Of a stretch of DNA of 24,362 nucleotides, positions 838 through 20,662 are shown piece after piece. The position numbers and the translations under genes are program-made. Position 1 is the first letter of the stretch; each line of letters begins with the position of its first letter. The DNA comes from a virus. The stretch spans positions 1 to 24,362 of IMG/VR virus record IMGVR_UViG_3300005549_000030. The stretch is one strand, 5' to 3'. The notes under the pieces were generated by a model, which saw nothing but the letters and a program-made list of their open reading frames with translations, did no database searches and had not been told where the DNA came from.

Positions 838-847
838 TGAGGAAGCC

Positions 848-2107: not shown

Positions 2108-2808
2108 AAGTCGCCGTCCTGATCCCCAGCCGCGATAGGTATGCCCAGCTTGTGGTGGCTGCCACGTCGGTCCTGAACACGAGTTCCGCCGATGTCTTGG
2201 TCTACGTGGACCAAGACCAGTACCGGCAGTACCAGTTCGTACTGCGGTCCCTCGACCCCAAGCGCGTCAAAGTCCTGTTCGGAGACCGAATCGGTCCCGT
2301 CGCTTCAGCCAATGCGCTGGTCAAGAGCTTCCCCGGCTACGACGTCTACGGGCTCATCACCGATGACAGTGCCATCACCACTTCAGGCTGGGACCAGTGG
2401 ACGCTCGAGGCCATCGCTCGGTTCCCGGGCCGCATTGCGGTCGTCTCTCCGCATCACCCGCATGGTTACCACGTCGACATGCCGTTCGTGTCCAAGGAGT
2501 GGATCGAGATAGTTGGCTGGTATGCCTGTCCGCTGATGAAGCACTACGCTTGGCCTATCGTCACCGGGTTGATCGGCGAGATGACGGGCATCGTCCACGC
2601 CCCGGAGTCGGCGTTCCACATCGACCATGACTACGACCCGAAGGCCAATCAGGACGTCAGGATGTGGGACTACGTGGCGTTCTTCAGCTTCGTGTCTCGG
2701 GACCTTCCTATCGTCGTCGCGGCGCTAAGGAAGGACATGTACGGGTCCAAGACGGTGACGCAGACTCAGCCCATCGAAGGGCTGGGCTACAAGGCGGTGG
2801 TGTCATGA
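2104..2808 (+). CDS. GT-A-like glycosyltransferase, copy 1 of a duplicated GT-FkbM unit
   Basis: 234 residues from a GTG overlapping the previous stop. The frame stays open far upstream, but that part lies inside the methyltransferase gene and is rejected. The N-terminus VLIPSRDR is the usual first strand and loop of GT-A nucleotide-sugar transferases. VYVDQDQ (about 34-39) and ITDDS (D87-D88) are the likely nucleotide-binding and DxD-like metal-binding elements. A histidine-rich stretch (SPHHPHG) follows. It is shorter than common GT2 enzymes and lacks a membrane segment, so it should be cytosolic. It is clearly homologous to the protein at 3449-4105, sharing VAS-NALV, FPGR, VVS-HH, EWI and HIDH/HIEH elements. 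It is coupled by ATGA to the FkbM gene after it. Donor and acceptor are unknown. Confidence 0.7.
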   Translation: MKVAVLIPSRDRYAQLVVAATSVLNTSSADVLVYVDQDQYRQYQFVLRSLDPKRVKVLFGDRIGPVASANALVKSFPGYDVYGLITDDSAITTSGWDQWTLEAIARFPGRIAVVSPHHPHGYHVDMPFVSKEWIEIVGWYACPLMKHYAWPIVTGLIGEMTGIVHAPESAFHIDHDYDPKANQDVRMWDYVAFFSFVSRDLPIVVAALRKDMYGSKTVTQTQPIEGLGYKAVVS

Positions 2809-3452
2809 TTCACGAGCCCCAGGTCTTGGTGCCATCTGACGGCCGGAAGCGGCCGCTGCCTCCGAACGGACATCTATCCAAGTTCATCATTCAGCAGTTT
2901 CCGGAGGGCTACCGGGGCTACGCCATCGACGTCGGTGCCTCGGATGGCATCTCCATCAACACCACCTACGTCTTGGAGATCGCGCATCTCTGGACAGTGT
3001 TGTCAGTCGAGGCCAATCCCGAGTTCGCGCAGTTCCTCAAGAGTTCGCGGGCGTTCGTGGAGATGTGCGCCTGCTCGGACCACACTGGTACCGCGACGTT
3101 CCACGCGAACCAGGAGAACCTGGAGGCGTTGTCGTCCCTTGTGCCCACGGACCGCGCGGATCTCATCAGGGACAACGCTGCCAACAACAAGTGGCAGGAG
3201 TTCGAGGTCCGGCTGGAGACGGTGGACTCACTCATGGCCAAGTGGCAGTTCCCGCAACTGGACGCCCTGTGCATCGACACCGAGGGCACGGAACTGGACG
3301 TCTTGAAGGGCTGCAGCCTCGAACGCTGGCGGCCGAAGGTCATCGTCACCGAATGCTGGGACAGGGTCGGACCCATCGACCTCTATCTCGAAGCCCGTGG
3401 CTACAAGAAGACCGCGCGGAACGCCATGAACGACGTGTGGATTCTCCGGTGA
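2805..3452 (+). CDS. FkbM-family SAM-dependent methyltransferase, copy 1
   Basis: 215 residues from an ATG within the ATGA overlap. SAM motif I is IDVGASDG (41-48). SVEANP follows as the acidic end of strand 2. A late CIDTEGTELDVLKG segment is the hallmark of the FkbM family (Methyltransf_21), whose members O-methylate sugars in polyketides, glycans and surface polysaccharides. The roughly 40 residues before motif I are likely a small cap. The gene sits directly after a GT gene and is followed by another GT-FkbM pair, which suggests each methyltransferase caps the sugar added by its neighbour. That pairing is inference. The 3' end overlaps the next gene by GTGA. Confidence 0.85.
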   Translation: MIHEPQVLVPSDGRKRPLPPNGHLSKFIIQQFPEGYRGYAIDVGASDGISINTTYVLEIAHLWTVLSVEANPEFAQFLKSSRAFVEMCACSDHTGTATFHANQENLEALSSLVPTDRADLIRDNAANNKWQEFEVRLETVDSLMAKWQFPQLDALCIDTEGTELDVLKGCSLERWRPKVIVTECWDRVGPIDLYLEARGYKKTARNAMNDVWILR

Positions 3453-4105
3453 TCGGCGTTCTCTGTCCGAGCCGGGGCAAGCCTGAGGGGTTGAAGCGTC
3501 TCATTGGCAACGTGCAGCGTACGGCGCAGTCGGCTGAAGTGCTGGCCTACGTCGATGAAGACGAGTGGGATGCCTACTCCGAGGTGATTCAGGGCACGCA
3601 ATACATCATCGGTCCCAGAGTCGGCCTCGTGGCATCGGTGAACGCTCTGGTTCAGGCGTTCCCGAGTTATAGCACCTACATCCTTGCTGGCGATGACGTC
3701 AGCATCAGTCCGCGGGGCTGGGATGTGTGGCTGGAGAAGCAGTTCGAGAATTTCCCCGGTAGGCTTGGAGTCGTGTCTGCTCACCACAGCGGCGGGGATT
3801 TCTGCAACTTCCCGGCTCTGTCCCGAGAGTGGATAGCAGCGGTCGGCCACTTCGGATGGCCGCTTTGTCGGCACTACACCTTCGACACCATCATCCAGGT
3901 CTTAGGCGAAGCGACCGACTTCGTCCACTCTCAGGCCTCGCAACTGCACATCGAGCATCCTGTGTTCGATGAGGTGAGCAAGCGCGAAGCGATCAAAGAC
4001 GACGCTCTGGTGTTCTTGGTCTGGTATGCGAAGCAGCGACGGATGTTCATTTCCAGTCTGAACGACAAGAGGGCCGCCAGTGAAGTTCCAGTATCACTCA
4101 AATAA
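3449..4105 (+). CDS. GT-A-like glycosyltransferase, copy 2 of the duplicated unit
   Basis: 218 residues from GTG at 3449. It aligns along its whole length with the GT at 2104-2808. Shared features are the PSR N-terminus, YVDEDE (34-39), a VAS-NALV segment, the GDD pair D82-D83 in place of the other copy's TDD, FPGR, VVSAHH, REWI, the LGE-T-VHS region and HIEH. The copies are diverged, with different loops, so they probably differ in donor or acceptor. There is no membrane segment or signal peptide. The 3' end overlaps the following FkbM gene by 26 bases, the largest overlap in this block. Sugar specificity cannot be read. Confidence 0.7.
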   Translation: MIGVLCPSRGKPEGLKRLIGNVQRTAQSAEVLAYVDEDEWDAYSEVIQGTQYIIGPRVGLVASVNALVQAFPSYSTYILAGDDVSISPRGWDVWLEKQFENFPGRLGVVSAHHSGGDFCNFPALSREWIAAVGHFGWPLCRHYTFDTIIQVLGEATDFVHSQASQLHIEHPVFDEVSKREAIKDDALVFLVWYAKQRRMFISSLNDKRAASEVPVSLK

Positions 4106-4652
4106 CGGAGTCGATGCTGCGGTTGACAAGGTGTTCGGTGACTACGTCGGCCATGCCTGCGACGTTGGTGCCAACGATGGATTGTTCTTCAGCAACACGA
4201 TGTTCTTCGAGCAGAAGGGCTGGACGGTCTTGTGTGTTGAGCCGAACCCGCTCTTGGCTGAAGCTGGTCGCAAGAACCGTAGGCTGTGGAGAGAAGTGGC
4301 TTGCTCAGCGGAAGACGCTGAGCTGGCCACGTTCAAGTCGGTCAAGGGCAATAACCACGCATCTTCTTCTGCCTTGATGCCAGAGGGCCATGCTGACGGA
4401 GCAGACTTGTTCCAGGTCAGGGTGAGGCGTCTGGACAGAGTTCTGGATGAAGCCGGGTTCCCAAAACTGGACTACCTCACGGTGGACGTTGAGAACTGGG
4501 AGCGACAAGTGATGGCAGGGTTCACGGTGGAGCGCTGGAAACCAAAAGTCATTGTGCTCGAGGAATGGACCGAGGAAGTCATCCAGATCCCGGGCTACGA
4601 CGTCGTTAGCAGACATGAGTATGACAACATCTACGTTCGGAGGGAACCGTGA
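4080..4652 (+). CDS. FkbM-family SAM-dependent methyltransferase, copy 2
   Basis: 190 residues. The start is a GTG at 4080, inside the preceding GT gene. SAM motif I is CDVGANDG (27-34). VLCVEPNP is the strand-2 acidic end, and LTVDVENWE matches the FkbM strand that reads IDTEG in copy 1. The ERWKPKVIV-EEW segment also matches copy 1, so the two methyltransferases are paralogues. This copy lacks most of copy 1's N-terminal extension, so the cap or acceptor site may differ. Local G+C is lower than in the head genes (29, 35 and 31 of 60 on three hand-counted lines). The gene is linked by GTGA overlap to the GT9-like gene. The acceptor is unknown; an O-methyl transfer to a glycan is the family expectation. 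Confidence 0.85.
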   Translation: MKFQYHSNNGVDAAVDKVFGDYVGHACDVGANDGLFFSNTMFFEQKGWTVLCVEPNPLLAEAGRKNRRLWREVACSAEDAELATFKSVKGNNHASSSALMPEGHADGADLFQVRVRRLDRVLDEAGFPKLDYLTVDVENWERQVMAGFTVERWKPKVIVLEEWTEEVIQIPGYDVVSRHEYDNIYVRREP

Positions 4653-5497
4653 GCACAGTCTTCACGATGCCGGGTAAGCTGGGTGATTCTCTACTCGAGT
4701 GGCCGGTGGCGTTCTGGTATGGGAAGCAGGTCGGTGACTTCGAGTTGTGGATGGACGAGAAGACCTGCAAGCCCTTGGTGCCTCTGTTCGAGGCCCAGCC
4801 CCATGTCGCCAAGGTCAAGTTGATTCCCGGCGTCGAGCATTGGAACTGTGGTGGGCAACCATTCCACTTCGATCTCCCAACTTCAGCGTTCGAGGGCAAC
4901 ACCATCTTCCATCTGGGACTCCGGATGTTCCCGCAGCGACAGATTTCACTGGAGACACTGGCCAATGCGAAAGTCCCGATCAATGTCTCTCAGGAACTGT
5001 TCTCTTCAACCCCCAGCATCAAGGCAGGCACCGGAGAGAAGCAGAATCGACTTGTACTTCATGGCCAATCAGTTTGCCCCCATAACCGACAGACTCCGGC
5101 CTTCTGGAAGTTCCTTGCTGGAATCAGGGACGAGATTGCAGACCTGTTTGATGACGTGGTGTTCGTCGGGAATGATCGGGACCGTGAAATCGGGAAGCGT
5201 ACATACCCCGGCTGGCATGAGTTCGTGGACGATGGCGACTTCCTGAAGCTCGCCGACCTGATCGCCGACTCCCGGGCCTTCATTGGGGTCGGCTCTAGTG
5301 CGGTGGCCTTGGCAGGGCTCTTGAAGGTCCCGGCTATCCGGGTCCACGACCCCATCGCCGACAACATGCCAAAGATCATCTGGTCCAACTTGGGCGAGAA
5401 CCAGTTGAACGACTCCGAGCTAGGGCTGCGTAAGTCGTGGCCTGAGTGGCGGGACCGCTGGCTCAAACCTGTTGACGCTGGCGTAGCGACCCCCTAG
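4649..5497 (+). CDS. GT-B / GT9-like (heptosyltransferase-like) glycosyltransferase
   Basis: 282 residues from GTG at 4649. The N-terminus TMPGKLGDSLLEWPVAF resembles the glycine-rich loop and first helix of GT9 transferases, which add ADP-heptose to lipopolysaccharide core. The C-terminal FIGVGSSAVALAGLLKVP (from about residue 211) is the matching GT-B nucleotide-sugar loop and helix, where GT9 enzymes carry a short serine/threonine-rich turn. It is shorter than bacterial heptosyltransferases (about 320-350 residues). This is the last gene of the cargo block: 27 bases separate it from the portal start, and a GGAG ribosome site for portal lies in that gap. It may be a transferase with new specificity or a non-catalytic relative. 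Confidence 0.68.
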   Translation: MSTVFTMPGKLGDSLLEWPVAFWYGKQVGDFELWMDEKTCKPLVPLFEAQPHVAKVKLIPGVEHWNCGGQPFHFDLPTSAFEGNTIFHLGLRMFPQRQISLETLANAKVPINVSQELFSSTPSIKAGTGEKQNRLVLHGQSVCPHNRQTPAFWKFLAGIRDEIADLFDDVVFVGNDRDREIGKRTYPGWHEFVDDGDFLKLADLIADSRAFIGVGSSAVALAGLLKVPAIRVHDPIADNMPKIIWSNLGENQLNDSELGLRKSWPEWRDRWLKPVDAGVATP

Positions 5498-5524: not shown

Positions 5525-7441
5525 ATGGTGAGCTTTCCGACACCGAAGTCGACTCCTCCGGGGCCTGATGTCGCTGCGCGCATGTCCAACGCTCGCATCA
5601 TGGAGCTGGTGGATGCGAGGCGGCAGGCGTCCCACCGCTACTACGAGGGGGTCTATTCGAGGCTCCAGCGCTGGTACGACGCCTACCGGGGGGTGTGGCA
5701 GGGACGGCTCGCCCAGTTCCGGAATAACGTCAACATTCCCTTCACTTTCGCCATGATCCAGTCCGACGTGGCGAGGAAGGTGCAGACCTCCTTCGGCACC
5801 TGGCCCATCGTTGGGTTCGAGGGCTATGCCCCGGAAGACGTGGCGAGGGCGCGGAAGAACGAGGTCTTGGTGTCCGCGCAGATGAAGGACTGCGACTCGG
5901 TGGTCAAGGCTGCCGACTTCTTCCTTCAGGGGGACATCTCCGGGACCGCAGTCGCCCGCTACGGCTGGAAGCAGATCAAGCGGATGGAACGCACCCGGAA
6001 CCGGGAGATGGTGGCTCCGGGGCTCGAGGTCCCGGTGGTCCGGGAGCGGATGGCGACGGTGTTCGACGGTCCCGACTGGGAGCCGGTGGACAGGCTCGAT
6101 TTCTGGCCCCAGCCGGCGCGGACCAAGATCAAGGACATGGCGTGGGTCATCCACCGTTACTACGCCGACCTTGACGACCTCATCGAAGACGCCAACTCGG
6201 ACTACCCCTACTTTGACGCCGGGGCGGTCCAGCAGCTCAAGCAGTCACCGATGTCCACGACGCTGGCGCAGGAGTACGCGAGACGCCGGGTGACCTACCG
6301 GAACGAGTACGACTACCAGGCCAGAGCTTCCGAGCGATTCGCCAAGCCCGTGGAGATATGGGAGATGCACGGCTTGGTCCCCAAGGAGTTCGCTCAGGAC
6401 GGGGTGCGGTTCCGTTGCATCGCCATCGGCAACCAGCGGGTGGTCCTGAAGAACCGGGAGAGCCCTTTCGGCTCGGAGCTTCCGTTCGCCTCTTACGCCC
6501 CGATGCCCGACCCCTACAGCTTCGATGGGGTGGCGAAGACGGAAGTGGCCTTCGGCCCCCAGCAGACGGCGAACCGGCTGGCGAACCAGAAACTGGACGC
6601 TCTGGACCTGCTGATCGACCCGATGTGGGTGGCGAACTCCGGGGTGAACATCAACACCCAGCACCTGTTCTCAAGGGCTGGACGCATCCTGCTGGTGGAT
6701 GGGGCAGCGGACGAGACCACCATCAGGGCCTTGTCCCCGGATATGCGGGGACTGCAGGCCGCCTATACGGAAGTCGCCCAGTTGTTCCAGTTCATGCAGT
6801 TGGGGACCGGTGAGACCGAGGCGCTTCTGGGTGGTGTGGCGGGTCCGGGTCGAGAGACTGCCCGGGGGTTCTTGGGGCGGCAGGAGAACGCCTTGACCCG
6901 TCTCGCCATGGAGACCCGTCTCGCCGAGGAAGGGTTCATTGAGCCCTTGGCCAACGCTTTCAGGAAGCTGGACCGGAAGTACCTCCAGTTCCCGCACGAG
7001 ATCCGCATCCTGGGGAGTCTGGCTACCACGAATCCGACGACGGGCCTGCCCTACGAACCGGAGCAGGCGACCATCGACTACGAGGACCTGGTGCCCGACT
7101 ACCGGGCTCGAGCCGTGGGAGCGAGCCAGATGATGGGCAAGACGGTCCGCCAGCAGAATCTGGTGTCCCTGCTGCAGATGATGTCGGCCAATCCTGCGAT
7201 GATGCAACTTGTGAACTGGGCGAACTTTGCGAGGCAGGCGTTCGAACTGTTCGACTTCAAGAACGTCAACGAGTTGCTGGTCTCGCAAGTCCCCATGGTG
7301 AACCAGATGGCGCAGGAGACCGGCCAGTCGCCGATGGGGGTGGCCAATGCCGTCTCAAGTCCTCTGGAGCAGTTGTCGCCCCAGACGCTGGGGGCGTTGA
7401 TGCAGACGGGGAACGCGGCACCGATGCCGGGTCTCTCGTGA
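5525..7441 (+). CDS. Portal protein (head-tail connector)
   Basis: 638 residues, within the usual size for short-tailed-phage portals. It forms the dodecameric ring at one capsid vertex through which DNA is packaged and ejected. Supporting features are the early NNVNIPFTFAMIQSDVA segment, the long alpha/beta wing region, a central PFASYAPMPDPYSFDGVA stretch (start of the stem/crown), the later helix-rich NRLANQKLDALDLL, and a C-terminal Met/Gln-rich tail (about 535-638) like a barrel or crown extension. Context is decisive: it is upstream of scaffold and capsid genes and downstream of terL. The ATG at 5525 has GGAG at the expected distance. No truncation is seen. Confidence 0.9.
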   Translation: MVSFPTPKSTPPGPDVAARMSNARIMELVDARRQASHRYYEGVYSRLQRWYDAYRGVWQGRLAQFRNNVNIPFTFAMIQSDVARKVQTSFGTWPIVGFEGYAPEDVARARKNEVLVSAQMKDCDSVVKAADFFLQGDISGTAVARYGWKQIKRMERTRNREMVAPGLEVPVVRERMATVFDGPDWEPVDRLDFWPQPARTKIKDMAWVIHRYYADLDDLIEDANSDYPYFDAGAVQQLKQSPMSTTLAQEYARRRVTYRNEYDYQARASERFAKPVEIWEMHGLVPKEFAQDGVRFRCIAIGNQRVVLKNRESPFGSELPFASYAPMPDPYSFDGVAKTEVAFGPQQTANRLANQKLDALDLLIDPMWVANSGVNINTQHLFSRAGRILLVDGAADETTIRALSPDMRGLQAAYTEVAQLFQFMQLGTGETEALLGGVAGPGRETARGFLGRQENALTRLAMETRLAEEGFIEPLANAFRKLDRKYLQFPHEIRILGSLATTNPTTGLPYEPEQATIDYEDLVPDYRARAVGASQMMGKTVRQQNLVSLLQMMSANPAMMQLVNWANFARQAFELFDFKNVNELLVSQVPMVNQMAQETGQSPMGVANAVSSPLEQLSPQTLGALMQTGNAAPMPGLS

Positions 7442-7442
7442 C

Positions 7443-7760
7443 ATGCCACTGACCGGGGAGCAGCTGGACAAGGTTAAACTTGTCCTGATGAGCCCGGGAT
7501 GGAATGATGTGATCCGGCCGGCGCTCGAGAACCGAGGCCGGAGTGCAATCAAGGCCCTATGCCTGACCCGGGCTGAACGCGCGAAGGTCATGGCGGGGCA
7601 ACCGTTCGACACCGACGATGACGTCTTGAGGGCGATGATCCGCGAAGCCGAGTGGATGATCGCCATCTGGGCGAACGAAGTCTCGGTGGACGAACACAAT
7701 CGCCGTCTCGACGAACTCGACCGGCAGGGCGTAGCAGGGAGTCCCGGGGCGAACCCCTAG
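7443..7760 (+). CDS. Small head-region protein of unknown function
   Basis: 105 residues, starting one base after the portal stop, so probably translated by reinitiation. It is predicted mostly helical and charged, with no membrane segment and no motif I can name. The body has an RAERAKVMAGQPFD element followed by a long amphipathic helix (about 57-92). Its place between portal and scaffold is one where short-tailed phages often carry a small head-assembly or portal-associated protein; a role there is inference only. The stop codon lies within a perfect 10-base palindrome (7754-7763). Confidence 0.7.
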   Translation: MPLTGEQLDKVKLVLMSPGWNDVIRPALENRGRSAIKALCLTRAERAKVMAGQPFDTDDDVLRAMIREAEWMIAIWANEVSVDEHNRRLDELDRQGVAGSPGANP

Positions 7761-8526: not shown

Positions 8527-9492
8527 ATGGCGCTTCCTGGTGGTGCAATCACCACTCAGGTGGCTGGCTTCTTCGGCCAGGCCACCCTTGGCGGTATCCA
8601 CCATGAGGATCTGACGGACCTCGTCACCATCCTCGATTCGTTCCAGACCCCGTTCTTCTCCAGCGCTCCCAAGACTCGCTGCACGGACGTCGTCCACTCG
8701 TGGACGGTCGATACCCTGGTGGCGACCTCGACGGCAGGCGTGCTGGAAGGCGACGACTTCAACGCCGCGGGTACCGGTGCCGCGCTGACTGCACCGACCC
8801 GTCTTTGGAACGTGTGCAGCATCCTCCGGCGCGACGTCGTGGTCTCAGACCGCGAGCGTGACGCCAACCCGGCCGGCATCCGGGACATGTACGAGCACCA
8901 GATCATGAAGGAGTTCAAGGTGCTCGCCCGCAACTTCGAGTCGCTGATGTTCTCGACCGGAGCGACGGCGACCAACACGGGTGCTGCAGCGCAGGCACCG
9001 TTGTCGTTCGGTTTCCGTGGCTTCGGCATCACCATCAGCGGATCGGCGTCGGCAGGCGTGACCACGGCGGACATCGTGTCGCTGTCGCAGACGCTGTTCC
9101 AGAACGGCGCGGAGCCGGATTCGCTGTGGTTCGCTCCCGCCTCGAAGCGTCAGTTCGTCAACGCCACCATCTCCTCGGGTTCGGGCAACGTCCGCAACAT
9201 CGCGGCGACGGACCAGAGGTTGGTGGCGAACATCGACGTGTTCGAGACGCCGTTCAACCAGCTCTACGCGGTGATCACGGACCGGTTCATCCCCATCTCG
9301 ACCAACTCGGCATCCGGTGCGTACTTCATCGGGGATCGAGCGATGGCCAAGGTGGCGTTCTTCCGTCCCCCGCAGCACAAGCCGATGGGTAAGGGCGGCG
9401 ACCATACGAGAGGAATTGTGCTCATGGATGCCACGCTTCAATTGGACCATCCTAGTTCGTGGGCTGCGATCACGGGCGTGACCAACGGCTAG
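8527..9492 (+). CDS. Major capsid protein (SU10 / DUF5309 type, HK97 fold)
   Basis: 321 residues. It builds the icosahedral shell. The pattern is that of the SU10-type major head protein family. It has an N-terminal arm, an early DLVTILDSFQTPFFSS segment, a spine-helix region with SDRERDANPAG and MYEHQIMKEFK, and an A-domain part including ASKRQFVNAT. The last third holds the family's conserved order of strands: VFETPFNQLYAVITDRF, then a FIGDRAMAKVAFFRPPQ strand and a LQLDHPSSWAAI ending. A strong AAAGGAG ribosome site precedes the ATG, and two stops in tandem (TAG TAA) end the gene, both fitting a highly expressed product. No decoration-domain insertion is obvious. Confidence 0.9.
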   Translation: MALPGGAITTQVAGFFGQATLGGIHHEDLTDLVTILDSFQTPFFSSAPKTRCTDVVHSWTVDTLVATSTAGVLEGDDFNAAGTGAALTAPTRLWNVCSILRRDVVVSDRERDANPAGIRDMYEHQIMKEFKVLARNFESLMFSTGATATNTGAAAQAPLSFGFRGFGITISGSASAGVTTADIVSLSQTLFQNGAEPDSLWFAPASKRQFVNATISSGSGNVRNIAATDQRLVANIDVFETPFNQLYAVITDRFIPISTNSASGAYFIGDRAMAKVAFFRPPQHKPMGKGGDHTRGIVLMDATLQLDHPSSWAAITGVTNG

Positions 9493-9549: not shown

Positions 9550-10047
9550 ATGGCAGGCAATCAGTCCAGAGGTTTGATCGCAGCGAGCAAGACGCGCGGG
9601 TGGGATCCGACGAAGATCCCAGCGCGCGCCGGGCGTCCCGAGGTGGACCTGAGCAAGATCGACGTGGACCCGTTCCCCCACAACATCACGCAGACGACTC
9701 CGGTCTACCCGGAGCAGCCGGGCGGTTACCCTGAAGGCTGGGTGAACGGCACGCAGCCGGTGCCGCCGCCGCAGGACCCGCCGCATGTGGGCGCACAGGA
9801 CATCTTCGCTCCGACACAGTTCTCGCACCCCGACACGTCCAGAGAGACGGTGTCTCGGGGTGTGGGGAAGGAACTGCCGGTTCGTGGCATGACGGGCAAG
9901 GCGACGGAGCCTCCGGCGCAGAACCCGACCCCGAACACGCCGTTCCCGAATCCCGCTGCGGTGCCGTTCGCGCAGCCGAACCACAACAAGGCGGGTGTCG
10001 GCCGTACCACCAACGCCAACCCGTTCGCTGGCATGGGAGGTGAGTGA
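9550..10047 (+). CDS. Proline-rich head-region protein, unknown
   Basis: 165 residues. It is rich in Pro, Gly, Asn and Thr with almost no hydrophobic core, including runs such as PPPQDPP and NPTPNTPFPNP, and so looks largely disordered. There is no signal peptide, membrane segment or catalytic motif. It follows the capsid gene and precedes two more small unknowns, a position used in other phages for decoration, head-fibre or head-completion proteins. A Ser/Thr/Pro-rich surface-exposed protein would also be a good glycan acceptor, which is worth noting given the transferases in this genome; that is speculation. The stop overlaps the next start. Confidence 0.65.
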   Translation: MAGNQSRGLIAASKTRGWDPTKIPARAGRPEVDLSKIDVDPFPHNITQTTPVYPEQPGGYPEGWVNGTQPVPPPQDPPHVGAQDIFAPTQFSHPDTSRETVSRGVGKELPVRGMTGKATEPPAQNPTPNTPFPNPAAVPFAQPNHNKAGVGRTTNANPFAGMGGE

Positions 10048-10385
10048 TGACCATCGTCTTCAAGGGCGGTACCAGTGGCAATCGTGAGGACGCCATCTTC
10101 CCGATGCCGACTTCTGGATCTCCGCAGCCGCTTCTCAAGACTCAGACCTCTGGTCCGGTGCCGAGCACGGTGGTCTTCAACTCGGAGCACTTCGATGTGA
10201 AGACGCACCGCGAGCAGGCGACCCCGGACTTCATGCCCACCGGCGGCACGACCGCTGGCCCCAATGATGCCGAAGGGGCGTACTCGACGGACATGTGTCA
10301 GCAGGACATCAAGGACTTGAAGTTCGACCCCGCTCAGGGTGAGGGGACGATCTTCAAGGGTGCGCCCAACACGGGGACCGACTAG
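10047..10385 (+). CDS. Small head-region protein, unknown
   Basis: 112 residues from ATG 10047, which overlaps the previous stop (TGATG). GGGAGGTGAG ends about 3 bases before it. An in-frame GTG at 10044 would add one residue. The protein is polar and Gly/Pro/Thr-rich, with few hydrophobic stretches apart from STVVFNSEHFDV. No domain is recognised. Close spacing with its neighbours suggests the same late transcript and a virion or assembly role, which is inference from position. Confidence 0.62.
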   Translation: MTIVFKGGTSGNREDAIFPMPTSGSPQPLLKTQTSGPVPSTVVFNSEHFDVKTHREQATPDFMPTGGTTAGPNDAEGAYSTDMCQQDIKDLKFDPAQGEGTIFKGAPNTGTD

Positions 10386-10387
10386 CC

Positions 10388-10846
10388 ATGAGCTTCTTCA
10401 TCGGCAAGAACGAGACGATGATGGATGCCGCTTTCGGCGACGTCGATGACTTCATGGACAAGCACCCGACCATCTACGGACCTCGGTTCGAGGCCATCGC
10501 TGAGTTGCGTAAGGCTGATGACGGCACGATGCACAAGGGGCAGGAGTTCCGGCGGGTGGCCTCGTTCGTCAACATCCCCATGTTCGGCGCGGTGACGAGG
10601 TTGTTCGAGCCGGACTTCATGAAGGACAAGAACAAGTTCTATGCCTTCCTGGACCGGAACAAGCATTACTGCACCTATGACCGCCGCTGGCAGGGTGGGG
10701 AACAGCCGAAGCAGGGAACACCGAAGATCATGAATCTCGCCGACATGGGGCTCGCCTACGAGGGGGCTCCGGAGACGTCAGAGGGCTGGGAACCGGTGGA
10801 GGTGGAAGTGCCGCTCGCTTCGGACATCGTCAGGGAGGACGCATGA
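10388..10846 (+). CDS. Conserved-looking head-region protein, unknown
   Basis: 152 residues, 2 bases after the previous stop. It looks folded: an N-terminal helix rich in Met and Asp, then RRVASFVNIPMFGAVTRLF, then a basic and aromatic segment (KFYAFLDRNKHYCTYDRRW, about 80-98) and an acidic C-terminus. I recall small phage proteins near capsid genes with a similar order of elements (a VAS-IP strand followed by a short helix and a positively charged aromatic turn), but I cannot name a family with assigned function. It ends in an ATGA overlap with the GT4 gene, so the two are co-translated. Confidence 0.68.
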   Translation: MSFFIGKNETMMDAAFGDVDDFMDKHPTIYGPRFEAIAELRKADDGTMHKGQEFRRVASFVNIPMFGAVTRLFEPDFMKDKNKFYAFLDRNKHYCTYDRRWQGGEQPKQGTPKIMNLADMGLAYEGAPETSEGWEPVEVEVPLASDIVREDA

Positions 10847-12168
10847 AGCCGCTTCGCATCTATAGCTTGATCCCGCCCAATGGGTCGGCGTCGTTCTACT
10901 ACCGCTGCTGGGTGACGCTGGACACCGCGGCCCACTTGGGGTTGCCGGTCGAGTGTCTCATCGACAAGAACGACGCCAACGTGCCCCCGGAGAAGCGGGT
11001 CAAGGAGTTCTGCGAGGCTGACCTTATCCTCCTCTACCAGCCCATCGGCGAGTCCCCTGTCAACAACATCCGCGGCATCCAGAGTTTCCTGCCTTCCAAG
11101 CGGGACAACGAATGGAAGTGGAGTCCGAGCATCGTCATCGAGACGGACGACAACCTGTTCAACGTCTCCCCCTTGAACCAGGCGTTCAAGTCGCTGGGCA
11201 TCCGCGACATGAACGGCAACCTGATTCCCATCGGCCACCACATCGGCGTGGTCGAGGAAGGGGAGAAGAAGGTGCTGTGGCAAGACGGCCAGAAGGGCTT
11301 CAGCCTGGCCAAGAACCGCCAGCAGATGGGCACCTACCGGAAGATCCTGGAGATGGCGGACCAGATCCAGTGCTCGACCCCCGAGGTGGAGAAGTCAGTG
11401 TTGAAGGAGATCCAGCCGAGACGTATCAGGACCTTCCCCAACCTGGTGCGGTTTGACCACTACCCGCAGGTGGCGCTGCAGCAGGACGAGTCCAAGGTCA
11501 ACATCATGTGGCAGGGGGGCATCGCTCACTACGAGGACTGGTATCCGCTGCGTCAAGCCGTGGGGAACATTACCAAGCGTTACCCAGAGGTTCACTGGCA
11601 CATCTGGGGGTCGCAGTTCCCGTGGACCACGGAGTTGATCCCGCAGGACCGGTTGACGTTCCACCCGTGGTGCGAATACGTCGAGTACAAGCTCCGCATG
11701 TGCATGATGAATCACGACATCGCATTGGCACCGCTGACTGACAACGTCTTCAACCGCTGTCGCTCGGCCATCAAGTGGTACGAGTCGAGCGTGCTCCACA
11801 AGCCCGCAGCGACCTTGGCGCAGAACACCGGGGCTTACAAGGCCGAGATCCAGGATGGCAAGACCGGACTCCTGTTTGATTCCCCCGAGGAGTTCGAAGA
11901 CAAACTCGCCCGCTTGGTGGAGGACCGCATCTACCGCAAGGAGCTTGCGGCCAACGCCAAGGACTGGATCTCCGAGAACCGGGATGCGTTCAAGGTGGTA
12001 CCGAGCATCATCGCCTCTTGGGAACAGATGCGAGGTGAACGCACCATTGAGCAGCCGCACGTGAGCGACGAGGAGTGGAGCGAGATCGAAGCCCAGGACC
12101 GCGCGGAGCAGGAAGCCGAGATGGGAGCCACGGATGACGCTGTTCCAGCCCTCAACGAAAGCGGTTAG
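10843..12168 (+). CDS. GT4-family (GT-B) glycosyltransferase inside the head gene cluster
   Basis: 441 residues. The N-terminal half begins RIYSLIPPNGSASFYYR and has a conserved IETDDNLFNV segment. The C-terminal half is a typical GT4 Rossmann domain. It starts with NIMWQGGIAHYED (phosphate-binding loop and histidine) and continues with VHWHIWG and DIALAPL. FNRCRSAIKWYESSV and AYKAEIQDGKTGLLF then form the nucleotide-sugar site, where E in KWYE fits the conserved acid of retaining GT4 enzymes. A charged Glu/Asp-rich tail (about 400-441) follows. It is coupled by ATGA to a small head protein upstream and overlaps the adaptor gene by 35 bases. A GT translated together with connector and head proteins is best explained by virion glycosylation, but host-surface modification remains possible. 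Confidence 0.88.
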   Translation: MKPLRIYSLIPPNGSASFYYRCWVTLDTAAHLGLPVECLIDKNDANVPPEKRVKEFCEADLILLYQPIGESPVNNIRGIQSFLPSKRDNEWKWSPSIVIETDDNLFNVSPLNQAFKSLGIRDMNGNLIPIGHHIGVVEEGEKKVLWQDGQKGFSLAKNRQQMGTYRKILEMADQIQCSTPEVEKSVLKEIQPRRIRTFPNLVRFDHYPQVALQQDESKVNIMWQGGIAHYEDWYPLRQAVGNITKRYPEVHWHIWGSQFPWTTELIPQDRLTFHPWCEYVEYKLRMCMMNHDIALAPLTDNVFNRCRSAIKWYESSVLHKPAATLAQNTGAYKAEIQDGKTGLLFDSPEEFEDKLARLVEDRIYRKELAANAKDWISENRDAFKVVPSIIASWEQMRGERTIEQPHVSDEEWSEIEAQDRAEQEAEMGATDDAVPALNESG

Positions 12169-13063
12169 TGCCGCCGCGCAAGAGATAGCAGATTGCGTCG
12201 GGGCGTCCGGCGACTCGGAGATGACGACCCGGGCTGGGCGCTCTCTCTTTGCGGCGCTCGAGCACTTCAACAACCGCGCCAAGTGGAACTTCCTCCTCAC
12301 TGAAGCCTCGCCCATCAGCATCATCGCCCCGTTTCAGGTCACCGGGGTGTCGGCTTCAGGAGGACAAGCCTCCGCTGCTTGTGGTGCCGGGCATGGCCTG
12401 CAGCCCGACGACTTCGTCTCCATGACGGGGTTGAGCGATGGCATCCGCATCTCAGCCACTTCAGCCTCGGGGTTCGGCATCTATGGCACCTTCTCGCTCG
12501 GGGCTGGGGTCAACGTCGGCACGGCCACGGCGATCCGGGACATGTACGACCTACCCTCGGACTGGAAGGCCGCCTACTCGGTGAGAATGGTCGGCTCCAA
12601 GACCACGCTCCATCCGGTGGGACGCAGGTTCTATGACCGCTCCAACTACCTGAGTGAGCAGACGTCGATCACCGTCCCCACCAACTACGACGTGTTCATG
12701 GTCGGGTCACGGGGGAAACTACGGATTCTCCAGCCCCCGTCGACCTCTGACGTCCTGCAGCTCCGCTACTACCGCCGGATGACCATCCCCACCACCACGG
12801 CGACGGCCGCTGTCTTGGACATCCATCAGGACTACGAGCCGTATCTCATGGCGTGGGGGAAGTGGCATTTCCTGACGGACAAGTCCGAGGGTCGCGGGGA
12901 ACAGCTGAAGACGTGGTTCGCGCTCTCGGAGCAGGGGTTGGTGACGATGCTCAAAGAGCAGACGAGCCAGCCGGACGCTGACGTCGGATTTATTCCGGGC
13001 GCCTACGTATTTGGGGTCTGGGGCGATAACACAACCCGGTTCATAAATTGGGATCAATCCTAG
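12134..13063 (+). CDS. Head-tail connector / adaptor protein (probable)
   Basis: 309 residues. The N-terminal part (helices around AAAQEIADCVGA and LFAALEHFNNRAKWNFLL) and the C-terminal part (LRYYRRMTIP, then DIHQDYEPYLMAWGKWHFL, then a helix with EQLKTWFALSEQGL) follow the plan of short-tailed-phage adaptors that sit between portal and nozzle. A Gly/Ser/Ala-rich beta insertion occupies about 65-140. Position before the nozzle-like gene supports this. It starts within the end of the GT4 gene. Its TAG stop shares the CTAG at 13060-13063 with the stop of the opposite-strand HNH gene, so the two genes converge and overlap by 4 bases. Confidence 0.65.
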   Translation: MTLFQPSTKAVSAAAQEIADCVGASGDSEMTTRAGRSLFAALEHFNNRAKWNFLLTEASPISIIAPFQVTGVSASGGQASAACGAGHGLQPDDFVSMTGLSDGIRISATSASGFGIYGTFSLGAGVNVGTATAIRDMYDLPSDWKAAYSVRMVGSKTTLHPVGRRFYDRSNYLSEQTSITVPTNYDVFMVGSRGKLRILQPPSTSDVLQLRYYRRMTIPTTTATAAVLDIHQDYEPYLMAWGKWHFLTDKSEGRGEQLKTWFALSEQGLVTMLKEQTSQPDADVGFIPGAYVFGVWGDNTTRFINWDQS

Positions 13064-13599
13064 GAAACAACGTGCTTCCATGCCCAGCCACGGAGTATGG
13101 CTCTGATGGCCTCACGAGTGACTCCGAACATCTTTCCAAGACGGACTTGCCCGTAGCCCAGGGCGTGAAGCCTCTTGATTTCTAAGACCTTTTGCTCGTC
13201 CAGCTTGGCTAGCCAATGGCGACTGCCTCTTGGCACGTTTTTGGTTGAGCCTTTGCGATACCGGCCCTTGGCCATCATGTCCCGCATGTTCTCGGACTGG
13301 GTACCGAGGAACAGGTGGCTTGGATTAACGCAGTCCTTGACGTCGCACCGATGCAGAACGAACAGTCCAACGGGGATTTCGCCGAAATGAATCCTCCAAG
13401 AAACTCTGTGGGCTCGGTCGGGTTTCCCGTTTCTGTGAGCTTGTCCGTAGCCGTTCCGGTGCTTGGCGCCAATCCATTGCCAGCACCCATCGTCGCTCTT
13501 GGCGACCCGAGCAAAGAAGCTGGCCCGGTATTCCTCCTCGGAAAACGGCAGGTTATGGCCGCCGGAGTCACGTCTCGTCGGGAAGTAGACCGGTGTCAT
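13060..13599 (-). CDS. HNH homing-type endonuclease, antisense to the late operon
   Basis: 179 residues from the ATG at 13599. An HNH_3-like core is visible: CWQWIGAKHRNGYGQ (39-53), the AHRVSW helix (63-68), H83 in FVLHRC, C85, C90, N92 and H95 in CVNPSHLFLGT, and the ENMRDM helix. A basic stretch follows. The C-terminal KVLEIKRLHALGYGQVRLGKMFGVTREAIRAI is a helix-turn-helix of the kind homing enzymes use for DNA recognition. The frame stays open further upstream, but that part lies inside the nozzle gene and is rejected. It fills the adaptor-nozzle gap almost exactly. Three hand-counted 60-base lines give 33, 32 and 33 G+C, below the neighbours, consistent with recent acquisition. Only a weak AGGA lies near the start. 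Confidence 0.85.
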   Translation of the reverse strand: MTPVYFPTRRDSGGHNLPFSEEEYRASFFARVAKSDDGCWQWIGAKHRNGYGQAHRNGKPDRAHRVSWRIHFGEIPVGLFVLHRCDVKDCVNPSHLFLGTQSENMRDMMAKGRYRKGSTKNVPRGSRHWLAKLDEQKVLEIKRLHALGYGQVRLGKMFGVTREAIRAILRGWAWKHVVS

Positions 13600-13614
13600 G
13601 TCCTGGAAGATACA

Positions 13615-13628
13615 CCAATGCACATTGG
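13615..13628. promoter_or_regulatory. Inverted repeat in the HNH-nozzle divergent gap
   Basis: CCAATG-CA-CATTGG, perfect 6-base arms, lies in the 38-base space between the two divergent starts. Its right arm touches the GGGAG ribosome site (13627-13631) of the nozzle gene. It could be an operator, a small RNA hairpin hiding that site, or part of the endonuclease target. Arms this short can also arise by chance. Confidence 0.35.
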
Positions 13629-13637
13629 GAGTCAATA

Positions 13638-16196
13638 GTGCCGCGCAAAGTCGAACCGCTTGACGGAGGTTTGGTAACCGACCGCGACCCGGCGCAGTTG
13701 AAGCCGGGGCAGTTGTCGGCGATGCGGAACTTCGTCTATCGCAATGGCTCGACGAGTCTTTTGCCTGCAGCTGGTAGGGCTGCATGGGGGACTGTGAATG
13801 CGACGGCGACTGCGGTACGGGGCATACGTGATATCCAGTTCGACAACGGCAATCACTACCTGATTGCCATGGCGGGTACCAAGTACCGCCGCGCCCCGGT
13901 GTCGACATCTACCCAGACCTTCACCGACCTTGCCACCATCGCCTCGGTGGGGAGCGCTCAGACGCTGGAAGCGGTGCAGTACCGGAACCGCTTCTTCCTC
14001 CTGAATGGGGCCACGGCTGACAGTTCGGCCATCAACACCAACACAGTGGTCTATCTCTCAGCGACTGCGGCTGCAGCGACGCCTCTGACTCGCCAGCATG
14101 GGATGTTGCCGGTCAACTCTGCTCCCAATGTCGTCACTGCTGGTGGTGGGGCGTTCTCGCAGAGTGTCACCGGGTACTACGAGTACTGGACAACTGAAGC
14201 CTCACGGTTCAAGCAGGATGATGCGGACACGATTCTCGAGTCTGCCTACTCGTCGGACAACGGTACGACGACGGTGTTTGTCTCCGCGACCAGCATCGTG
14301 CCGACCATCCAGCTGCCGACGATCCAGAATGTCGGGTTCGCTACCCACTGGCGCATCTATCGGAGCCCGGTCAAGGCCAAAGCTACAGACAAGAAGTTCC
14401 CAGTAGGGTTCATGATCGCTGAGGTCGGGACCGGAGCGTCTGCCCACGCTGACACGACTGCTGTGGCTTCAGCGTCTGGACTCCCGGCATCGTTCAACAG
14501 CACCGGGTTCTACTTCGGGTTCGCCAGCGCATCGAGCATGGCGGCGGATGACGGTGTGTATGCCTCAGCCACCATCGGCGCCACGCAGGTTCTAACCCAG
14601 CAGGGTGCCTACAACTTCAACATCCCGGCTTTCAATGGCAACGTGCAGGGCATCGTTGTGGAGATACAGGGCTACGTCAGCGCAGGCTCTGCCCCGGTAC
14701 CGGTGACGGTATCTCTGGGCAAGCGGCGCACGAGTGACGGGCACTTCCTGCAGACGGTGCGGGAGCGGCAGACTGTCGACATCGCGGCTTCCAAGTCAGG
14801 GCTCATCACCAGCACGAACTCCGGAGCACCGACCACGTTGACGTTGGGATCGTCCACAGACCGCTGGATACCGAGCAACATCGGCGGGTTCGTGGATACG
14901 GACTTCGACACCACGGTCATGGTCGTGGTGAGTGTCTCCAAGGCCAACGTCTCCATCGGCATCGACTACGTCAAGGTCACGGCGTACTACGGTGCCAGCA
15001 ACGATTCGACGGTGCAGTTCCCGACCATCGTCTACAACTTCGGCGACATCACGAGTCAGGTGGCGAAGAACTTCCCACCGCCTTCAGCCAACACGGGGGA
15101 CGTGTTCCAGGACTCGTTGGTCCTGAATGACATGTCCAACCGGGCCATGGTGCGCTACTCGTTCCCCGGAGAGCCCGAGTCTTTCCCCCCGACCTACTTC
15201 ATCGACTTCGAGACCCGGGATAACGACCAGGTCACCCATATCAGGACGGTGAACAACCGGCTCATCATCGGGCTCGACCACTCGGTGTGGAGGCTCAACT
15301 ACCTGCCCAGTGAGCGGGATTCGACGTTCGACCGTGGCCGTGCGGTGGAACTCATCTCCCGGAGCTTCGGCATCTACAACCCGATGTGCGCCTGTACGCT
15401 GACCATCGATGGCGAGTCGGAGCTGCTGGCGTTCGTCTCGCACAAGGGCATCCACACCACGGATGGCTTCAACTTCATCACCCGATCTCGGAACCAGACG
15501 TGGCGCAACTTCATTCCCAGCATTGGTAATAGCTCCTACCCCATTGCGCTCTTGAACGATCCGGAGAACCGGGTGCTGAGGTTCTACTACCGGAACGACA
15601 ATGACCCGGTATATCCGAGCGACAGCTTCCTCTGCCTGCACATTTCCTACGACCGTGAGGACATTGGTCCTGATGGTAGCTTCAAGTTCTCTGGTCCTGT
15701 CCACATGCGGAACTCGGACGGGGTCGGTAACTATGGCAGTTTAGAGTCAGTGGCTGCGGTTCCACATACCACGGGAACGACTTTGTTCTATCTGGGCTAT
15801 GGCGGTACCGATTCCGGCGTCGGGGGGGGCAAGGTCTACAGGGATGGTCAGTCAAGCACGATTCCATCGGATTACGCCAACTCGACCTTCACCACGCGAC
15901 GCATGTATATGGCGGGCTTGAGCGGTGAGTGGGAGTTGGACGACATGTACGCCTACTGTGGGTCTACAGCGGGCTATCCACTGGCCACGTACACGTTCCA
16001 GAACCTGAAGACCAACAGCACCGAGATCTCGGGGCCGAGCAAGACCTTCTCGGGTACCTCTAACTTCCATCGCGTCAGTCCGCGGATGATGTGCGAAGGA
16101 CTTCGCATCGTAGTCGAGGCAACGGGGACGAACTACAGCTACGAGTACCTCGTGCTCGGGAGCAAGAACTTCGGCCTGGAAGATAGCGGCAAATGA
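13638..16196 (+). CDS. Tail nozzle-like / tail tubular protein (beta-propeller type)
   Basis: 852 residues. The GTG at 13638 is preferred because GGGAG lies 6 bases upstream. The N-terminus (RKVEPLDGGLVTDRDP, then SAMRNFVYRNGS) resembles nozzle and tail-tip proteins of short-tailed phages, which start with a strand that lists and orders ring subunits. The body is beta-rich, with Gly/Ser/Thr repeats. The second half, from about 510, has recurrent blades such as VTHIRTVNNRLIIGLDHSVWRL, SELLAFVSHKGIHTT and TLFYLGYGG, as in a propeller. An inserted beta-sandwich-like region at about 280-470 may be a receptor- or glycan-binding module. It forms the tube end below the adaptor. The family name is inferred from order and fold pattern. 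It ends ATGA into the fibre gene. Confidence 0.6.
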   Translation: MPRKVEPLDGGLVTDRDPAQLKPGQLSAMRNFVYRNGSTSLLPAAGRAAWGTVNATATAVRGIRDIQFDNGNHYLIAMAGTKYRRAPVSTSTQTFTDLATIASVGSAQTLEAVQYRNRFFLLNGATADSSAINTNTVVYLSATAAAATPLTRQHGMLPVNSAPNVVTAGGGAFSQSVTGYYEYWTTEASRFKQDDADTILESAYSSDNGTTTVFVSATSIVPTIQLPTIQNVGFATHWRIYRSPVKAKATDKKFPVGFMIAEVGTGASAHADTTAVASASGLPASFNSTGFYFGFASASSMAADDGVYASATIGATQVLTQQGAYNFNIPAFNGNVQGIVVEIQGYVSAGSAPVPVTVSLGKRRTSDGHFLQTVRERQTVDIAASKSGLITSTNSGAPTTLTLGSSTDRWIPSNIGGFVDTDFDTTVMVVVSVSKANVSIGIDYVKVTAYYGASNDSTVQFPTIVYNFGDITSQVAKNFPPPSANTGDVFQDSLVLNDMSNRAMVRYSFPGEPESFPPTYFIDFETRDNDQVTHIRTVNNRLIIGLDHSVWRLNYLPSERDSTFDRGRAVELISRSFGIYNPMCACTLTIDGESELLAFVSHKGIHTTDGFNFITRSRNQTWRNFIPSIGNSSYPIALLNDPENRVLRFYYRNDNDPVYPSDSFLCLHISYDREDIGPDGSFKFSGPVHMRNSDGVGNYGSLESVAAVPHTTGTTLFYLGYGGTDSGVGGGKVYRDGQSSTIPSDYANSTFTTRRMYMAGLSGEWELDDMYAYCGSTAGYPLATYTFQNLKTNSTEISGPSKTFSGTSNFHRVSPRMMCEGLRIVVEATGTNYSYEYLVLGSKNFGLEDSGK

Positions 16197-17425
16197 GAGA
16201 CTTCACGGGCATCCCCTACGCCAGCATCCCGCCGCCCAATGCGCCGGACTTCTCGTCACGCTTAAGAAATGCCTTGGGTGTCTTGGATGCGTGGGCGAGG
16301 GACGCTTCGCAGGCCGTGGCGTTGATCCAAAGGGGTCAGATTCCGCAGGGTCAGGGCGTGACGCTGGGCTCCAGTAGTCTGACTACGGAAGAAAATGCTT
16401 TCTTGCGTACTGGGGACGGGTTCGTTGACCTGACCACGGACCAGACGATAAACGGTGTGAAGGATTTCGAGACCCAAGTGGTTATCGGGATTTCCTCTGC
16501 TGCGACATTGGATGTTGGTGATTTTCTGGCCCCTGATGGCATCAGGACGGTGTTCGCTGCTGCCAGTGCTGGAGTCGCGGACATCAGTCAGTGGGTAGGA
16601 AGTTCGGGGACGTTGGTGGCTAGCGTGAGTCCAACGGGTCTTTTCACGGCTGACTCGGTATACCTGCCGAATGGTGGCACGCTCGGGGCAAACGTCTTTG
16701 ACGCGGACGCCATTCACAACCAGCTCTACATCAAAGAGACGGGCAGCGGGAACATCGGCACGATCACCTGGCCGGGTCTTGGATCGGGTGCAAGCATCAC
16801 ATTGCCGGTGACGGGAACCATTCTGACCAGTCTTAACACCGTTAATGTGGCTGCAAAGACGTTGTTGAATGACACAAACATCCGCTGCGATACGGGAAGC
16901 GGGGTCACGTTCAAGGACAACACCTCGACTACGAAGCAGATGCGCTTTGACCTCTCGGGGATCACCGCTGGCACCACCCGGGCGCAGAAGTTCCAAGACA
17001 CCGCGGGGTCGGTGGTCCTGGTGGGCAATGCAACTTCAGCCTCGGGAGTTCTTGGGACCATCGCCCTGACCGCCCAGACCGGCAGTCTTGGTGCCCAGAC
17101 CATGCTCACGGGCAATGCCTCGAGCGCGGGGCTCTACCGGCTGGCGTTCTACATGAAGACCACGACGGCGGGGGATCCCGGGGACACGGTCAAGGCGACT
17201 CTGTCATGGAATGACGGCTCGGCCCAGTCGATGGACGTACCGATGCTAAACGCCACCGCCATCGTCAACAACCTGGACGCTGGGACCCTGAATGCCTTCG
17301 TTCAGGGGTCGGTGGTGGTCAAGGCCGCTGCTAGCCAGAACATAACCTTTACAACCACCTTGACATCCCCCGGAGCGGGAACCCCGGCCTATTTGATTGA
17401 CTGCCGGATCGAGGCTTTGGGTTAG
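16193..17425 (+). CDS. Tail fibre / receptor-binding-type protein
   Basis: 410 residues. The N-terminal 50 residues include a helix (RLRNALGVLDAWARDAS) that would bind the nozzle. Then comes a fibre-type repeat, TDQTINGVKDF (about 80-90), a motif common in tail fibres. A beta-rich shaft follows with SITLPVTGTIL and QMRFDLSGITAGTTRAQ elements. The C-terminal domain (about 285-410) has a GLYRLAFYMKTTTAG strand order that looks like a separate tip or sugar-binding module. Hand counts give 32, 30 and 33 G+C per 60 in 16381-16560, against 38 in 17101-17160. The gene therefore looks mosaic, with a replaced shaft. No chaperone or lyase active site is seen. Confidence 0.7.
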   Translation: MRDFTGIPYASIPPPNAPDFSSRLRNALGVLDAWARDASQAVALIQRGQIPQGQGVTLGSSSLTTEENAFLRTGDGFVDLTTDQTINGVKDFETQVVIGISSAATLDVGDFLAPDGIRTVFAAASAGVADISQWVGSSGTLVASVSPTGLFTADSVYLPNGGTLGANVFDADAIHNQLYIKETGSGNIGTITWPGLGSGASITLPVTGTILTSLNTVNVAAKTLLNDTNIRCDTGSGVTFKDNTSTTKQMRFDLSGITAGTTRAQKFQDTAGSVVLVGNATSASGVLGTIALTAQTGSLGAQTMLTGNASSAGLYRLAFYMKTTTAGDPGDTVKATLSWNDGSAQSMDVPMLNATAIVNNLDAGTLNAFVQGSVVVKAAASQNITFTTTLTSPGAGTPAYLIDCRIEALG

Positions 17426-19232: not shown

Positions 19233-20662
19233 TGGCGACCCTGAACGACTTGGGCAAGAAGGTGAAGGCCAAGTACCCCGGCCAATACGAGGGTCTATCG
19301 GACCTTGAAGTGGGCCGCAGGGTACGGGCCAAGTACCCCGACGCCTACACGGACTTCGGTGGCGCTGACACGTCACGGGTCATGGTCAGCGCCCATGAGC
19401 GGGGGAAGCCACAGCGCAAGCCCCAGCCGGGGGAGACGACACCGCTCTCCGGCTATCAGAGGGCGACCAATGCCATTCCCTACGTCACTGGGGGCATCGG
19501 CAGCTTCGCTGGCGGTGGACCCGGAGCAATCATCGGTGGGGCTCTGGGAGTGCCGGGAGGCCCTGCAGGAATCGCTGCAGGGGCTGCCACGGGACGACGC
19601 ATTGGTAGCGCTGTAGGCGCTGACTTCGCTGGCCAGGGTGGCGAGGCCCTCCGGCAGCTGCTGACAGAGATCCCGGCTCTGGCCACGGGCGGGGTGCCGG
19701 CCTACGAGGCCGCTGGGGGTCCTGCCAGCCCCAGCGAAGCCTACCAGCGCATCGCTGACGTCGGGGCGGAGCAGGCCAAGCTCGATGCCTTCGGACAGGT
19801 TCTGGGCACTGGGGCCAAGTATCTGGGCAAGGGAGCGATGACTCTTGCTGCTCGGGTCAACCCGGAAGTAGCGCAGACCCTCATCGACAACGGCATCCAG
19901 CTGAGCAACTGGGGCAAGCGGAAGATCATGACCCTCATCGGCCAGTCTGCGACCAAACTGCGGGGCATGGTCGCTGGCGCCGGACTCGGGCGCACCCTGA
20001 ACGCTGACCGTGTTGCCGGCGAAATCGAGAAACGGACTCTGGCTGACATGGGCAAGAGCAGCACGGGAACTGGCGAGGCAGCCAAGAAAACGCTGGCCGC
20101 GTTGAAGGCTGACTTCCTTGGCCATGAGGAAGTCGCTCCCACCGGCAAGATTTCATTCGAAACCGCTCACAAGTTCGCCCAGTCGGCTGGGCAAGAGACG
20201 GCTCCGAAATACGTGAGGATGGCGGACGGGCAGCTCGCTGAGTTGCCCACCGACCCCGTTCGACGTCTGTGGAAGAACAATGAGAATGCTGTCTTCCAAG
20301 AAACCTTGGGGCACCCAGCGGCCGTGGGGCCGGACTATGTTGCAAGGAACGCCCAGACATCGAAGCTGATCGCAGCGAAGAATGCGATGTGGCCCAAAGT
20401 GGACGAGATGGGCTCTGGAGCCGAGGTGGTGCGCCGTGGCATCCCACTGGCCACCACTCTTGGAGGGGCTGCGGCAGGGGAGGAAGTCGGCAGGCGCTAC
20501 CACACTCCGGGCGGTGCCATCGGTGGCGCAGCATTGGGAGCCCTACTCGGGAGTCCAGCGGGGATGTCCACGCTGGCGCTGATCCTCTCCAATCCGGCGC
20601 TCTATGCCGCGCTGCGGGCGGGTCCGCAGGTCACGGGTGGGATGCTTTCGGCCCACGAATGA
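19232..20662 (+). CDS. Putative ejection / membrane-channel protein with KAKYPG repeat and glycine zippers
   Basis: 476 residues. The N-terminus holds two copies of a 20-residue unit, KAKYPGQY and RAKYPDAY, joined by SDLEVGRRV; the DNA repeats 14 bases exactly (19267-19280 and 19327-19340). I know this K-KYPG-Y pattern from N-termini of phage virion proteins. A glycine-zipper segment at about 84-125 (GGIGSFAGGGPGAIIGGALG) and another hydrophobic Gly/Ala region at about 401-463 could cross a membrane. Between them is a helical Lys/Ala-rich body. Together these suit a protein that enters the host envelope during DNA delivery. It ends ATGA into the endolysin gene. Confidence 0.6.
   Translation: MATLNDLGKKVKAKYPGQYEGLSDLEVGRRVRAKYPDAYTDFGGADTSRVMVSAHERGKPQRKPQPGETTPLSGYQRATNAIPYVTGGIGSFAGGGPGAIIGGALGVPGGPAGIAAGAATGRRIGSAVGADFAGQGGEALRQLLTEIPALATGGVPAYEAAGGPASPSEAYQRIADVGAEQAKLDAFGQVLGTGAKYLGKGAMTLAARVNPEVAQTLIDNGIQLSNWGKRKIMTLIGQSATKLRGMVAGAGLGRTLNADRVAGEIEKRTLADMGKSSTGTGEAAKKTLAALKADFLGHEEVAPTGKISFETAHKFAQSAGQETAPKYVRMADGQLAELPTDPVRRLWKNNENAVFQETLGHPAAVGPDYVARNAQTSKLIAAKNAMWPKVDEMGSGAEVVRRGIPLATTLGGAAAGEEVGRRYHTPGGAIGGAALGALLGSPAGMSTLALILSNPALYAALRAGPQVTGGMLSAHE

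Follow-up and report, generated by a model that had tools for sequence, protein, structure and literature searches.

In an uncultured podovirus lineage, a single glycosyltransferase (GT) gene behaves as though it belonged to the core head/connector set, and this behavior appears to be new. Glycosyltransferases encoded by phages usually count as accessory genes. In the diverse lineage studied here, one GT instead behaves as a core head gene would, with a GT-B enzyme fold, invariant motifs, purifying selection, and a near-universal, deep linkage to the capsid and adaptor genes. Because it is universal among 33 relatives, co-diverges with the head genes, and keeps its key motifs, the GT is no incidental passenger of the head/connector block.

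The window, i.e., the whole stretch of DNA analyzed, is a virus record of 24,362 bases that is assigned to an SU10-like podovirus by Pfam matches, all above cut-off, to the portal (5525-7441; SU10_portal, 67.7 bits), the major capsid protein (8527-9492; SU10_MCP, 157 bits), and the adaptor, or head-tail connector (12134-13063; SU10_adaptor, 35.6 bits against a cut-off of 27). These three genes lie on the plus strand, as do the terminase end, the sugar cassette, the genes from 9550 through the GT, and the nozzle-like gene described below. The window opens with the C-terminal end of a putative terminase large subunit (2-496), recognized by position and size and lacking a Pfam match; the full-length gene, encoding 569 amino acids, is present in the near-identical contig G001 (L122:16828-18537). 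A nozzle-like tail protein of ~860 residues, with an uncertain start codon, occupies 13593-16196. It is named by position and size only, both of which are as expected; profile searches return no match, and the gene is kept in relatives.

The GT gene (10843-12168, 441 residues) was labeled a GT4 glycosyltransferase in the initial annotation, and the label is borne out by Pfam (Glyco_trans_1_4, 29.4 bits versus a cut-off of 27), by a match to phrog_7162 “glycosyltransferase” (E 5e-24), and by an AlphaFold (AF2) model that matches GT4 structures. The model (pLDDT 88.9, pTM 0.85) displays a two-domain GT-B fold. Its best structural match is BshA (Z 28.2, rmsd 2.9, 325 residues aligned); PimA scores a Z of 25.9, and WaaG and TarM are also among the matches. 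The enzyme shares with BshA, PimA, and PglA the fold over ~325 residues (Z 25-28) and the C-terminal donor-domain sequence, and differs from them in its low identity (11-16%) and in having an FNxCRSxxKxYE motif. Both domains are conserved across 32 orthologs (0.56 for the N-terminal and 0.67 for the C-terminal domain); the orthologs from the relatives L099 and L103 score under the Pfam cut-offs.

Three sequence motifs stand out. Residues 102-104 (DDN; 11146-11154) are invariant in 32/32 orthologs. Within residues 223-232 (WQGGIAHYED; 11509-11538), Q224, G225, and H229 are invariant in all 32, G226 is a serine in two, and W223 and D232 differ in L103. The third motif, residues 303-314 (FNRCRSAIKWYE; 11749-11784), is conserved among the orthologs, with F303, N304, C306, R307, S308, K311, Y313, and E314 invariant in the 32. 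Canonical retaining GT4 enzymes of the EX7E type carry both Glu residues of that motif. Judged from sequence alone, E314 is placed like the second of these, just before the segment that aligns with PglA, and the residue eight positions before it is the invariant Cys306. If E314 is indeed the second Glu of EX7E, the first would be replaced by Cys306.

The initial annotation had proposed a comparison of syntenic loci in related phages, and this comparison finds the GT consistently in place. Relatives comprise ~60 distinct contigs retrieved with the capsid protein and with the GT as queries, and presence was counted in contigs that hold a capsid gene followed by at least 3.6 kb of sequence. The GT is present in all capsid-bearing contigs with this much sequence (33/33), a count that becomes 30/30 without L099, L100, and L103, which were fetched via the GT itself. 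It also lies immediately upstream of the adaptor in 37/37 adaptor genes with enough upstream sequence, some of whose contigs were found through the GT. The linkage persists in deep relatives: L099, L100, and L103 keep the order small head-region gene, GT, adaptor, with identities to the window of 43, 39, and 22% for the capsid, 37, 35, and 23% for the adaptor, and 44, 42, and 33% for the GT, respectively.

Beyond these contigs, a tblastn search of the GT against 50,697 phage records at E 1e-5 returns two Streptomyces phages, Zuko and KimJongPhill, and a podovirus genome from Manatee Spring, MW202801, and nothing else. The GT of the latter (UOF82074) resembles that of the window (hhalign E 3e-18 over ~268 columns) and likewise stands directly upstream of an SU10 adaptor, whose ORF it overlaps by 16 bases; it differs in that it closes a larger sugar cassette (oxidoreductase, GT, PhyH, methyltransferase, NodB-like) and is not a lone gene. 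The adaptor ORF itself (L107:12804-13517) is unannotated in MW202801.1 and was recognized by Pfam (33.9 bits, cut-off 27). Among isolated phages, none with a close GT was found, a portal search gave one weak record, and an adaptor search gave none. Scanning genome contigs with the GT alignment for hosts or prophages yielded a single weak hit (26%), to a Verrucomicrobia MAG. The alignment-based search for GT copies found all known ones; a Pfam-based genome search missed some and was not used for absence. LUZ24 and HTVC106P, whose capsids are distantly related, have no GT annotated from capsid to tail and no GT-profile match in their records; phages with related capsids thus assemble without a GT.

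The GT evolves with its neighbors. Its pairwise identity tracks that of the portal (rho 0.81), capsid (0.87), and adaptor (0.81), the portal-adaptor pair (0.83) serving as reference. Genes of the upstream sugar cassette follow the portal with rho values of 0.37 (FkbM1), 0.38 (GTa), and 0.57 (the homolog of 4649-5497). Over shared pairs, GT identity (0.585) is higher than adaptor identity (0.493). The dN/dS of 0.03-0.28 across seven pairs indicates purifying selection, so the frame did not arise by chance. The mirror-tree signal is evidence of vertical co-inheritance rather than of interaction.

At the nucleotide level, the GT ORF, its start and stop, and both of its reported junctions are as first described. 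The start codon sits over the TGA stop of the preceding gene in an ATGA (10843-10846), and a Shine-Dalgarno-like AGGGAGGA (10832-10839) can be read directly inside the 3′ end of that gene, which encodes a small helical protein of 152 residues (10388-10846) with a homolog in nearly all relatives by alignment. At the other end, the last 35 bases of the GT (12134-12168) overlap the 5′ end of the adaptor gene. The 4-base ATGA overlap is common to most close relatives, and the GT/adaptor overlap of 35 (or 38) bases is found in one clade. Outside that clade, the gap between the small head-region gene and the GT is mostly about +26 to +1510 bases, and that between the GT and the adaptor start is mostly 0 to about 20. 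The initial annotation argued from this coupling to a virion substrate; the tight head/connector linkage on which it drew stands, but the ATGA and the overlap hold in one clade only.

Some of these junctions are interrupted. Homing-endonuclease ORFs split the pair formed by the 152-residue gene and the GT in L041 (HNH) and L015 (LAGLIDADG-like), both of them close relatives that keep the GT. More generally, free-standing genes resembling homing endonucleases have a hot spot between the capsid and GT genes, where they split pairs coupled in near relatives (L004:1811-2386 and 2870-3370, L015:8949-9464 and 10794-11294, L039:8986-11986, and L041:8282-8764). Pfam confirms HNH_3 in L041 and L039; the LAGLIDADG match in L015 is below cut-off, and the others were recognized by eye. 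In the window, an HNH endonuclease gene (13060-13908 (-); HNH_3, E 4e-14) lies on the opposite strand between the adaptor and the nozzle-like gene, which abut without this insertion in L004, L005, and L065. A second HNH-like ORF is found near the right window end (22595-23179 (-); HNH_2, E 0.013, below cut-off).

The initial annotation also placed the GT in the core virion operon, apart from the other sugar genes. Those genes form a sugar cassette (788-5497) between the terminase and portal genes, also inside the virion block, so the position of the GT alone does not identify its substrate. The cassette comprises a C-methyltransferase (788-2107), two glycosyltransferases (about 2107-2808 and 3449-4105), two FkbM methyltransferases (about 2802-3452 and 4080-4652), and a gene that is GT9-like by eye, with no profile match (4649-5497). 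The C-methyltransferase and the 4649-5497 homolog occur in 24/24 close relatives with enough sequence. Elsewhere the cassette is missing or replaced: in G016 the terminase abuts the portal, in G015 the interval holds a DegT aminotransferase instead, and in G014 it holds a methyltransferase-like ORF. All three keep the GT, whose role is therefore independent of the cassette. In distant podoviruses, it is the post-capsid interval that contains multi-gene sugar cassettes (MW202801, L107:7788-12819; MW202524, L109:2636-11978), and this interval is thus a recurrent site of glycan genes.

The reading favored here, plausible if still short of probable, is late phage-intrinsic glycosylation, whose target is most likely a virion protein that is conserved; the upstream cassette, which varies, would elaborate the glycan. 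We infer a catalytically active, cytoplasmic GT-B enzyme, expressed late and together with the head and connector genes, that would draw on a nucleotide sugar of the host to glycosylate an acceptor intrinsic to the phage. In the bulk of the family, the terminase-portal cassette would then extend or methylate the glycan made by the GT. The deep conservation of the enzyme and the retention of both its acceptor-side and donor-side domains suggest a constant phage-intrinsic acceptor, and the location of the gene among head and connector genes makes a virion protein the most likely one. As for the virion substrate first proposed, linkage and co-divergence leave a phage-intrinsic substrate as the best reading, but the three specific arguments offered for it (coupling, separation from the other sugar genes, and a Ser/Thr/Pro-rich acceptor) are weak. 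The constant presence of the GT is also expected of an enzyme that acts on a conserved host glycan.

The acceptor would most likely be the capsid, the 152-residue protein, the adaptor, or the nozzle, rather than the product of 9550-10047, which the initial annotation had put forward as a Ser/Thr/Pro-rich candidate. This 165-residue protein is indeed proline-rich (17%), but its Ser+Thr content is an ordinary 12.7%, below that of the capsid (17.8%), adaptor (18.4%), nozzle-like protein (20.0%), and the product of 16193-17425 (21.5%). It evolves fast, is conserved only in an N-terminal MAGNQSRGLI..S...GWDP segment, and has no counterpart between capsid and GT in L103, which keeps the GT; it was rejected as the acceptor. 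The next gene (10047-10385, with an alternative GTG start at 10044) encodes a 112-residue protein (FKGGTSGN...GSPQP) with 19.6% Ser+Thr and is not universal. The 152-residue protein was modeled with a pLDDT of 71 and has no Foldseek match in the PDB. Comparing it by hhalign with the small proteins encoded after the capsid gene in LUZ24, HTVC106P, MW202801, and MW202496 revealed no convincing kinship (probability at most 13%).

A bolder form of the same idea, which we regard as rather doubtful, is that the GT is an obligatory, assembly-linked enzyme of the whole podovirus lineage that would attach the initial sugar to a conserved virion protein in the host cytoplasm, while the fast-changing cassette would vary the cap and thereby yield a diversifying sugar coat.

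It is also possible, though unlikely, that the target is a glycan of the host envelope (LPS, capsule, or glycolipid). The GT would then modify it late in infection and thereby keep the dying cell or its debris from binding progeny or competing phages. Enzymes of the same GT-B fold include envelope-glycan and lipid transferases (PimA, WaaG, and TarM, all found among the structural matches), and the window holds further sugar genes and FkbM methyltransferases. There is also a precedent in the Gratiaviridae, an uncultured phage family that resembles the present lineage in having a GT beside late structural genes: that GT lies upstream of a kinase between portal and capsid, together with an ATPase, and the authors interpret it as modifying the host capsule (PMC8008677). 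Surface glycans vary by host, however, and variable presence would be expected of an enzyme directed at them, whereas the GT occurs in nearly all relatives and stays strongly conserved even between deeply diverged ones. The GT also shows no marked basic N-terminal domain in its sequence (N-domain pI 5.0-7.7), a weak argument against an envelope substrate.

That the GT is cargo with no tight functional link, one of the sugar genes that accumulate in the SU10-like structural block and serve whatever the cassette targets, is improbable. MW202801 and MW202524 do hold their multi-gene sugar cassettes in exactly this interval, and two of the window's cassette genes, the C-methyltransferase and the 4649-5497 homolog, match the GT in their constancy among close relatives (24/24). 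However, the lone GT persists in G016, which lacks the cassette, and in G014 and G015, which have it replaced, and it tracks the head genes better than the cassette genes do. Least credible is glycosylation of modified phage DNA in the manner of T4-type or TET-associated glycosyltransferases: phage GTs that act on DNA are known (PMC12619734) and a family-wide GT would fit a genome-protection gene, but this one lies in the virion block, 19 related records (some incomplete) contain no thymidylate-synthase-like base hydroxymethylase in a search whose control was positive in 9 genomes, and a Tet_JBP search, with a silent control, was also empty.

Glycosylation of a virion protein, the reading preferred above, has a parallel in mycobacteriophages of clusters F1 and O, whose GTs glycosylate the capsid and tail proteins of the virion, according to Freeman et al. 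2023 as cited in PMC11600133 and PMC12619734. By the same accounts, cluster O phages carry several GTs in tandem beside an O-methyltransferase gene. The likeness consists in GTs that are phage-encoded and in the GT and methyltransferase content of cluster O, which is comparable to that of the window. The present GT differs in lying within the head/connector block, directly before the adaptor, of a podovirus-type genome, where virion glycosylation is what we infer; it has no tblastn match to the mycobacteriophage GTs at E 1e-5. A literature search, which was not exhaustive, found no description of a GT beside the adaptor in this lineage. If the GT acts on the virion, its sugar would be a regular component of the particle, with consequences for stability, adsorption, and recognition. 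With a GT that is conserved and a cassette that varies, the order in which the glycan is built would be open to direct testing.

Three further genes of the window merit mention. A small ORF between the terminase and the C-methyltransferase (460-837 in the window; L122:16487-16825 (-)) has an acidic MSRYAFDLDDTLD motif and looks HAD phosphatase-like by eye; Pfam gives it weak GT4 N-terminal matches only. A gene of 105 residues between the portal and the scaffold position (7443-7760 (+)), kept among relatives, matches Swt1-like HEPN below threshold (19.5 bits, cut-off 27.5). Lastly, a 155-residue ORF (21829-22296 (+)) with a signal-peptide-like sequence and a weak outer-membrane beta-barrel match (E 0.087) adjoins the lysis genes, including an M15 peptidase (20662-21186); a beta-barrel-like ORF in this setting hints at a Gram-negative host.
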